Position numbers and translations under genes: made by a program. A stretch of 64,000 bases of DNA. Origin: Rheinheimera sp. Its GTDB lineage: Bacteria > Pseudomonadota > Gammaproteobacteria > Enterobacterales > Alteromonadaceae. The notes under the pieces were generated by a model that was not told where the DNA came from, did no database searches, and saw only the letters and a list, made by a program, of their open reading frames with translations. The stretch covers positions 434,001-498,000 of the forward strand of contig NZ_JAUYGV010000006.1 of assembly GCF_030690345.1 (NCBI RefSeq). The letters run 5' to 3'. Every line of letters starts with the position of its first letter. Within the stretch, counting starts at the first letter, position 1. Shown here in pieces: positions 23,815 through 25,010 of the stretch.

Positions 23815-23908
23815 CCGGAAGAATGACGTGGTTAAAGGTGTACGGCAAGCCAAAAGCGGCTGTGCTACCTGACCAATAATGATGTTATACGTGGACCTTG
23901 GTTGTTTT

Positions 23909-23933
23909 GCCCTGCTATGCAGGGCTTTTTTTT
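23909..23933 (+). terminator. Intrinsic terminator after ilvC
   Basis: GCCCTGC-TAT-GCAGGGC-T8. Confidence 0.9.
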
Positions 23934-23972
23934 CGCGTTAAGCTAAGGTTTCTGAAACAGGAGCATGGCAAG

Positions 23973-24404
23973 ATGAAAACGATAGCCCTGGTTGCACATG
24001 ACGGCAAGAAACAGGCTCTACTGCAATGGGTGGCGGCGCATAAAGCGTTCTTTGCTGATAAGCAGTTGGTAGCAACCGGTACTACCGGTAAGTTAGTTGC
24101 AGCTGCGCTACAGCAGGATGTAGTGTGTCTGGCCAGTGGCCCTTTGGGTGGCGATCAACAAATTGGCGCTATGATAGCTGAGCAAAAAATTGACTGGCTG
24201 GTGTTTTTTTGGGATCCGCTGTCATCGCAGCCGCATGACCCGGATGTAAAAGCATTGATCCGTTTAGCGGTGGTGTGGAATATACCGGTGGCGTGTAATC
24301 AGGCTACAGCAGACTTTATTATCCATTCCAGTCTGTATCAGCAGGATTATCAGCGTGAAGTGCCGGATTTTTCGGTGTACCAAAAGCGGCTGGACAAACA
24401 GTAA
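23973..24404 (+). CDS. mgsA: Methylglyoxal synthase
   Basis: MKTIALVAHDGKKQALLQWV...FFWDPLSSQPHDPDVKAL; start moved downstream of the ilvC terminator. Confidence 0.95.
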   Translation: MKTIALVAHDGKKQALLQWVAAHKAFFADKQLVATGTTGKLVAAALQQDVVCLASGPLGGDQQIGAMIAEQKIDWLVFFWDPLSSQPHDPDVKALIRLAVVWNIPVACNQATADFIIHSSLYQQDYQREVPDFSVYQKRLDKQ

Positions 24405-24493
24405 CGCTCTGGTAGCTGTACCAGGTTGCCCGTGCTAAGTGAAGATAATGAATGAAGATTAACTTACAGCGGTTGTTGCGGTATGGAGGAAGA

Positions 24494-24521
24494 AGGTAGG
24501 CCGCATACTGCGCGGCCACCT
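24494..24521 (-). terminator. 3' terminal hairpin of the CsrB-like RNA
   Basis: RNA strand AGGU-GGCCGC-GCAGUAU-GCGGCC-U-ACCU followed by pyrimidine-rich CUUCUUCC; poor U tract. Confidence 0.6.
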
Positions 24522-24821
24522 AAGGTCCTGTTTCGTCATCCTGTCGATACTGTCCTTAGCATATCATCCCTGGCTCCGTCCCGGAGTGTTCCTGAGGCAT
24601 CCTGCCTGATCCTGTCATCCTTAAACATTATCATCCTGATAATGTGCTCTCATCCTGAGAGTGTCCTGTATCTTCCGTGCAATTCTCAGCGCCTGTGAAG
24701 AATCTGAAAAAAGGCCTGCTCGTCCTGAGCGTGTCCTGTTATTCATCCTTGTGCTATCCTAGCCAGACACTGCGTCCTGCAGTTACACCCTGTCATCCTG
24801 TCAGGGGGTCGATCCGTTGAC
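24494..24821 (-). ncRNA. csrB: CsrB/CsrC-type CsrA-sequestering sRNA
   Basis: Minus strand carries 16 AGGA motifs (about 20 GGA) in about 325 nt. Eight perfect hairpins present a GGA-type motif in the loop, e.g. ACAUUAUC-AGGAU-GAUAAUGU, CUCUC-AGGAU-GAGAG, AGGC-AGGAU-GCCU, GCUC-AGGAC-GAGC. Flanked by promoter-like and terminator-like elements. Confidence 0.92.
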
Positions 24822-24825
24822 GAGT

Positions 24826-24854
24826 TAAGTATGAACTCTGCAGCGCGATTTAAG
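24826..24854 (-). promoter_or_regulatory. Candidate sigma-70 core promoter of csrB-like RNA
   Basis: Minus strand CTTAAA - 17 bp - TACTTA; predicted start near 24819. Confidence 0.4.
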
Positions 24855-24925
24855 CATGGCTTTTGAGAAAAAAGCACAGTGTAATATTATTGTAAAACAT
24901 GATAACTATGCCATTTAACGATATT

Positions 24926-24992: not shown

Positions 24993-25010
24993 TGTGAGAT
25001 ATATCTCACA
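24993..25010. promoter_or_regulatory. UvrY/GacA-type upstream activating palindrome
   Basis: TGTGAGATATATCTCACA, perfect 18-bp inverted repeat, similar to the csrB/rsm GacA-box TGTAAG/TGTGAG-N6-CTTACA/CTCACA. Confidence 0.75.

Follow-up and report, generated by a model that had tools for sequence, protein, structure and literature searches.

The DNA analyzed here, hereafter the window, was a 64-kb stretch of the genome of a strain of Rheinheimera, a marine and freshwater genus. Its minus strand, from position 24821 to ~24490, carries an RNA gene of ~330 nt without annotation. We estimate at roughly 95% the probability that this locus is the csrB gene of Rheinheimera, that is, the gene of a small RNA (sRNA) that acts as a BarA/UvrY-activated CsrB sponge of CsrA. 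CsrA is a global regulator protein, and RNAs of the CsrB type soak it up. The locus is summarized as follows:

~24821 to 24488–24494, minus strand: CsrB-type sRNA gene (predicted transcript), recognized by motif density, the match to RF00018, covariation, and genus-wide conservation.

The minus strand of the 328 nt between 24494 and 24821 contains 21 GGA and 16 AGGA motifs; the reading made earlier from the letters of this DNA (the sequence-only reading) had counted about 20 and exactly 16, respectively. Elsewhere in the window, a sliding count on both strands gave at most three AGGA per 328 nt. The same reading had seen no credible coding sequence, and the list of open reading frames (ORFs) of at least 80 aa was indeed blank over the sRNA stretch. 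In addition, homologues of the sRNA differ by indels that are incompatible with any conserved frame. The features of the Csr/Rsm class were found, as far as the sequence goes: a GGA-rich intergenic RNA within ~100–450 nt with many GGA in hairpin loops, an 18-bp UvrY/GacA inverted repeat, and uvrY, barA, and csrA in the genome.

At the gathering thresholds of Rfam, the window gave zero matches. The comparison with the Rfam models of this class that had been proposed along with the sequence-only reading yielded, under permissive settings, one credible match only, to CsrB (RF00018), over the full length of the model (positions 1–356) with 43.3 bits and an E-value of 1.8e-10. The curated gathering score of RF00018 is 71 bits, and the sRNA is unannotated because its score lies under this cut-off. 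When RF00018 was run against the whole 4.35-Mb genome, the locus was the sole significant match (E 2.6e-10). A second csrB was also sought in this way and rejected: apart from the locus, the genome gave a single match, with an E-value of 3 and without a GGA-hairpin array. CAGGA clusters were also looked for across the genome: of 11 matches, 4 were the csrB locus itself, and those elsewhere were discarded as scattered single triplets. The models of CsrC (RF00084), RsmY, and RsmZ did no better than that of CsrB, and three overlapping matches of the clan scored lower. The sRNA is CsrB-like and not RsmY/Z-like. We claim homology to CsrB and membership of the Csr/Rsm functional class, both as sequence-based assignments; given that the gathering score was not reached, we do not apply the formal RF00018 label.

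The coordinates of all eight GGA hairpins listed in the sequence-only reading proved exact, with 4–9 Watson–Crick pairs each by greedy inward counting, and the GGCCGC/GCGGCC hairpin that it had placed at the end of the RNA was located at 24494–24521. Hairpins 9 and 10 below, the UvrY box, and a second sponge gene are additions to it. The hairpins, in the order of the transcript, are:

24788..24806, minus strand: GGA hairpin 1, CCCTGACAGGATGACAGGG; double changes in 3/5 pairs.
24770..24782, minus strand: GGA hairpin 2, CTGCAGGACGCAG; 95.5% paired, double changes in 3/4 pairs; ATTTACAGGAAGTAAAT in other species.
24753..24763, minus strand: GGA hairpin 3, GCTAGGATAGC; nearly invariant.
24718..24730, minus strand: GGA hairpin 4, GCTCAGGACGAGC; 100% paired, double changes in 3/4 pairs.
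24647..24661, minus strand: GGA hairpin 5, CTCTCAGGATGAGAG; double changes in 4/5 pairs.
24625..24645, minus strand: GGA hairpin 6, ACATTATCAGGATGATAATGT; 68% paired, with the shifted alternative ACTATTACAAGGTAGTAATAGT in the Arsukibacterium lineage.
24595..24607, minus strand: GGA hairpin 7, AGGCAGGATGCCT; helix 7 of the covariation test.
24574..24586, minus strand: GGA hairpin 8, CTCCGGGACGGAG; 100% paired.
24547..24562, minus strand: GGA hairpin 9, ATGCTAAGGACAGTAT; 95.5% paired, double changes in 2/4 pairs; low pairing probability in its own sequence.
24533..24547, minus strand: GGA hairpin 10, weak, TCGACAGGATGACGA; 83% paired, double changes in 2/3 pairs; low pairing probability in its own sequence.
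24488..24521, minus strand: terminator-like hairpin, AGGTGGCCGCGCAGTATGCGGCCTACCT, with TTCTTCC after it; helix 11 of the covariation test, with a stem probability of 0.99.

Within the single sequence, these hairpins by themselves are just moderately above chance: eight GGA had a stem of 4 bp or more, compared with a mean of 3.5 and a maximum of 9 when the non-GGA letters were shuffled. Folding restricted to local stems gave all eight hairpins a probability of at least 0.90. In the unrestricted ensemble, six of the eight reached this value, while AGGCAGGATGCCT had 0.39 and CTGCAGGACGCAG 0.003, with competing long-range pairing. The decisive evidence for the hairpin structure is the covariation among 22 homologues (alignment A1), which was tested on a structure derived from the window's own sequence. 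In the GGA-hairpin structure, 87.6% of the cells were paired, a percentage that this derivation biases in favor of the structure relative to controls with slid partners. Changes on both sides, which when kept as pairs in other species are less affected by that bias, occurred in 27 of the 54 stem pairs, versus 12.6 ± 2.1 after shuffling and at most 12 with the partners slid by 1–3 columns. The loop GGA was kept while the stems varied, as in CTGCAGGACGCAG versus ATTTACAGGAAGTAAAT, which bears out the earlier remark that differing stems surround a constant loop motif.

The center of the sRNA (24665–24717, minus strand; TTTTTTCAGATTCTTCACAGGCGCTGAGAA) is poor in GGA. In the Arsukibacterium lineage, an insertion beside this center adds two or three GGA hairpins, suggesting a modular gain of CsrA sites.

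Each of the 31 Rheinheimera/Arsukibacterium genomes searched has the csrB locus, and in none of them did it score over 71 bits. RF00018 matched at E ≤ 0.01 in 30 of them, and the remaining one (G006) was positive by DNA homology; the DNA search itself found the locus in 25 of the 31. Among 14 control genomes, E. coli alone matched RF00018 at E ≤ 0.01. Scores of at least 71 bits were obtained in 9 of the 61 genomes of the same search, and these 9 belong to other families of the order. The same core sequence also occurred in named records of Rheinheimera and Arsukibacterium and in two metagenome-assembled genomes labelled just Gammaproteobacteria, and no plasmid was found with the sRNA. The proposal that relatives should keep the GGA loops together with covarying stems was thus borne out throughout the genus.

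Upstream of the sRNA, three conserved elements were recognized:

24993..25010, minus strand: UvrY/GacA box, TGTGAGATATATCTCACA, a perfect 18-bp inverted repeat centered at ~-181.
24880..24896, minus strand: conserved motif TTTACAATAATATTACA at ~-75 to -59, with the same offset in 21/25 relatives.
24828..24833, minus strand: -10-like hexamer CATACT, with a predicted transcription start at ~24821.

Each of the 25 aligned Rheinheimera loci has the UvrY box upstream, and in nearly all relatives ~195 nt separate it from the first GGA. In genome-wide counts, which were pattern searches, TGTRAGN6CTYACA had only two sites in the 4.35 Mb, namely the csrB box and one on contig 4. In 22 of the 25 relatives, GCATAAT, TCATAAT, or GCATACT stands equally far from the upstream box; with CATACT/CATAAT taken as the promoter, the box would be centered at -181 relative to a start at ~24821. 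Within TTTACAATAATATTACA, TTACA (TGTAA when read on the opposite strand) is directly repeated with a period of 11–12 bp. In E. coli csrB, TGTAAGCGCCTTGTAAG lies closer to its promoter than TTTACAATAATATTACA does in Rheinheimera, and TTTACAATAATATTACA might serve UvrY as a second contact site. The possibility that the palindrome is a CRP site was ruled out, as the spacing between TGTGA and TCACA is 8 bp and not 6.

The genome also encodes the protein partners. There is a single csrA (E 6e-25), the product of which is nearly identical to the solved enterobacterial CsrA over residues 1–55 and keeps Arg44. UvrY was identified with 63% identity over 211 aa. For BarA, the identity was 37% over 909 aa, and the next-best kinase trailed by a wide margin. 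By sequence homology, CsrA, UvrY, and BarA together with the two boxes form a putatively complete BarA–UvrY–CsrB/C–CsrA circuit. The original assignment to the CsrB/CsrC type is upheld by the RF00018 match, by conserved stems that covary, by the UvrY box, and by the finding of csrA, uvrY, and barA in the same genome.

By analogy with proven relatives, from which we infer transcription, UvrY binding, binding and titration of CsrA, and the effect on target mRNAs, the circuit would operate as follows. The sensor kinase BarA would phosphorylate UvrY, and UvrY-P would bind the inverted repeat at 24993–25010 and activate an otherwise weak promoter, with the transcript starting near 24821. The RNA of ~330 nt, which would terminate at the GC-rich hairpin at 24494–24521, would present ~20 GGA, with short hairpins holding ~10 of these in their loops. 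Once accumulated, it could hold several CsrA dimers at once through these loops, and the withdrawal of CsrA from its mRNA targets would free the mRNAs that it represses.

Several observations weigh against the assignment to csrB. The RF00018 score of 43.3 is lower than the gathering score of 71; the minimum free energy of the whole RNA is unremarkable (z -1.7); the U tract of the terminator is poor in this species, in which the consensus terminator scan was silent; and, unlike in E. coli csrB, no perfect IHF site was found between the box and the promoter, just a site with one mismatch. The U tract is better in the Arsukibacterium lineage. A low score would also be expected of a decayed or inactive csrB copy, as would the low probability of several stems in the unrestricted ensemble. 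Such a copy is nevertheless very improbable, since the stems covary and the loops are kept genus-wide, the box varies little or not at all, and the locus is the only csrB-like one in the genome.

The surroundings of the locus bear on another explanation. The flanking genes named in the sequence-only reading were recovered by their domains: mgsA (MGS-like domain) at 23898–24404 on one side and a DyP peroxidase gene (N- and C-terminal domains) from 25080 on the other. CsrA controls mRNAs via GGA hairpins, and the RNA, sitting between these two genes, could accordingly be a long 5' or 3' untranslated region or a cis-regulatory leader of a neighbor that carries many CsrA sites. We regard this as highly unlikely: mgsA lies on the other strand, which would make the RNA antisense to it, the peroxidase gene is divergent, and the RNA has a predicted promoter and a terminator-like hairpin of its own, all conserved. 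Moreover, mRNA leaders carry far fewer than ~20 GGA, and several species keep the sRNA though mgsA was not found within the ~1.5-kb flanks examined. The many recurrences of AGGA might instead point to a repeat array or a gene of a small protein rather than an RNA gene, yet unit length and stem sequence vary, the changes fall in complementary pairs, no ORF of at least 80 aa is present, and the indels of the homologues would break any frame; the probability of this explanation is negligible. The reading as csrB is retained.

The DyP peroxidase gene adjoins csrB throughout the genus, and its predicted start codon is ~70 bp from the csrB UvrY box. One box might therefore switch both the csrB sponge and the peroxidase, and the direct UvrY regulon with full boxes might consist of just the two sponge RNAs; we consider this combined proposal speculative and rather unlikely.

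The UvrY box on contig 4 stands at a similar distance ahead of another GGA-hairpin RNA of ~300 nt with a strong terminator:

G000 contig 4, ~68700–69010 (L095:1690–1995), plus strand: CsrC-like RNA, unannotated, behind the only other UvrY box of the genome.

This RNA contains eight GGA and gave no match to a Csr family of Rfam even at an E-value of 1. Its homologues occur in 30 of the 31 genomes of the genus, and one GGA hairpin (alignment columns 113–129) covaries. According to names derived from translations, it is flanked by a cytochrome c4 gene beside engB/yihA and, on the other side, by a methyltransferase gene that precedes one resembling yihI. In Salmonella, csrC is located between yihA and yihI (table in PMC2515195). 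The contig 4 RNA is taken here as the putative CsrC of the genus.

Related arrays were observed in other genomes. In a genome from another family of the order (L133:1000–1770; G037:C1, ~595000–595770), a CsrB-like locus consists of 11 head-to-tail modules of ~52 nt with ~4 GGA per module, comprises 56 GGA in 771 nt, and ends in a terminator-like hairpin. Its sequence has the look of a sponge RNA that has grown by tandem amplification of modules; it is overlapped by a 92-aa repeat ORF, so that coding is possible. At L132 (G044:C1:4533806–4536939), five CsrB copies form one array with a spacing of ~700 bp, and two of the five show 100% identity over 300 nt; the literature examined reports no more than four copies of csrB per genome. 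Another genome (G041:C1) has two consecutive GGA-dense stretches, L135:850–1350 and 1500–2000, with the UvrY box TGTGAGATATATCTCACA between them. RF00018 matches the second stretch only, so that the first could be one more overlooked sponge RNA.

A full-text literature search, outside which most subscription papers lie, returned no mention of Rheinheimera with csrB or of Alishewanella with CsrA. The present results complete the Csr circuit for Rheinheimera, comprising BarA, UvrY, CsrB, the CsrC-like RNA, and CsrA. They also reveal that the standard Rfam cut-off misses csrB genus-wide and that the CsrC-like sibling is missed altogether; alignments A1 and A2 could help to improve the Rfam models. 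As to the biology, a known circuit is extended and not altered.

Compared with E. coli CsrB (RF00018), the Rheinheimera sRNA is shorter (328 versus 369 nt), with 21 versus 22 GGA and 16 versus 14 AGGA. Both have short GGA-loop hairpins, and CsrA, BarA, and UvrY are present in both species. The UvrY inverted repeat, at -181 in Rheinheimera, corresponds to the proven UvrY-P site TGTGAGAGATCTCTTACA of E. coli csrB, which is centered at -183/-182 (PMC4682653) and was also seen in the E. coli csrB record. The neighbors differ, being mgsA and the DyP peroxidase gene in Rheinheimera and yqcC and syd in E. coli. CsrB1 and CsrB2 of Shewanella oneidensis are AGGA-rich, with a predicted length of ~420 nt and UvrY/GacA boxes upstream, and their expression was shown to require BarA and UvrY (PMC3171408); these two csrB copies are adjacent, whereas Rheinheimera has one csrB and a distant CsrC-like RNA on another contig. 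Vibrio tasmaniensis CsrB1–CsrB4 are multi-site CsrA antagonists and siblings in one genome (PMC6262261); these four derive from duplication, unlike the Rheinheimera pair of one CsrB and one CsrC-like RNA. In Pseudoalteromonas fuliginea, the Csr sRNAs Pf1, Pf2, and Pf3 have 25, 21, and 9 GGA, respectively, and CsrA binding was demonstrated for Pf2 and Pf3 (PMC11882849). The Pf sRNAs were found by the same motif logic as the Rheinheimera sRNA, and it is by this logic, rather than base by base, that they are likened to it. The Rheinheimera sRNA adds to a well-known kind of RNA, with proven relatives in Shewanella, Vibrio, and Pseudoalteromonas.
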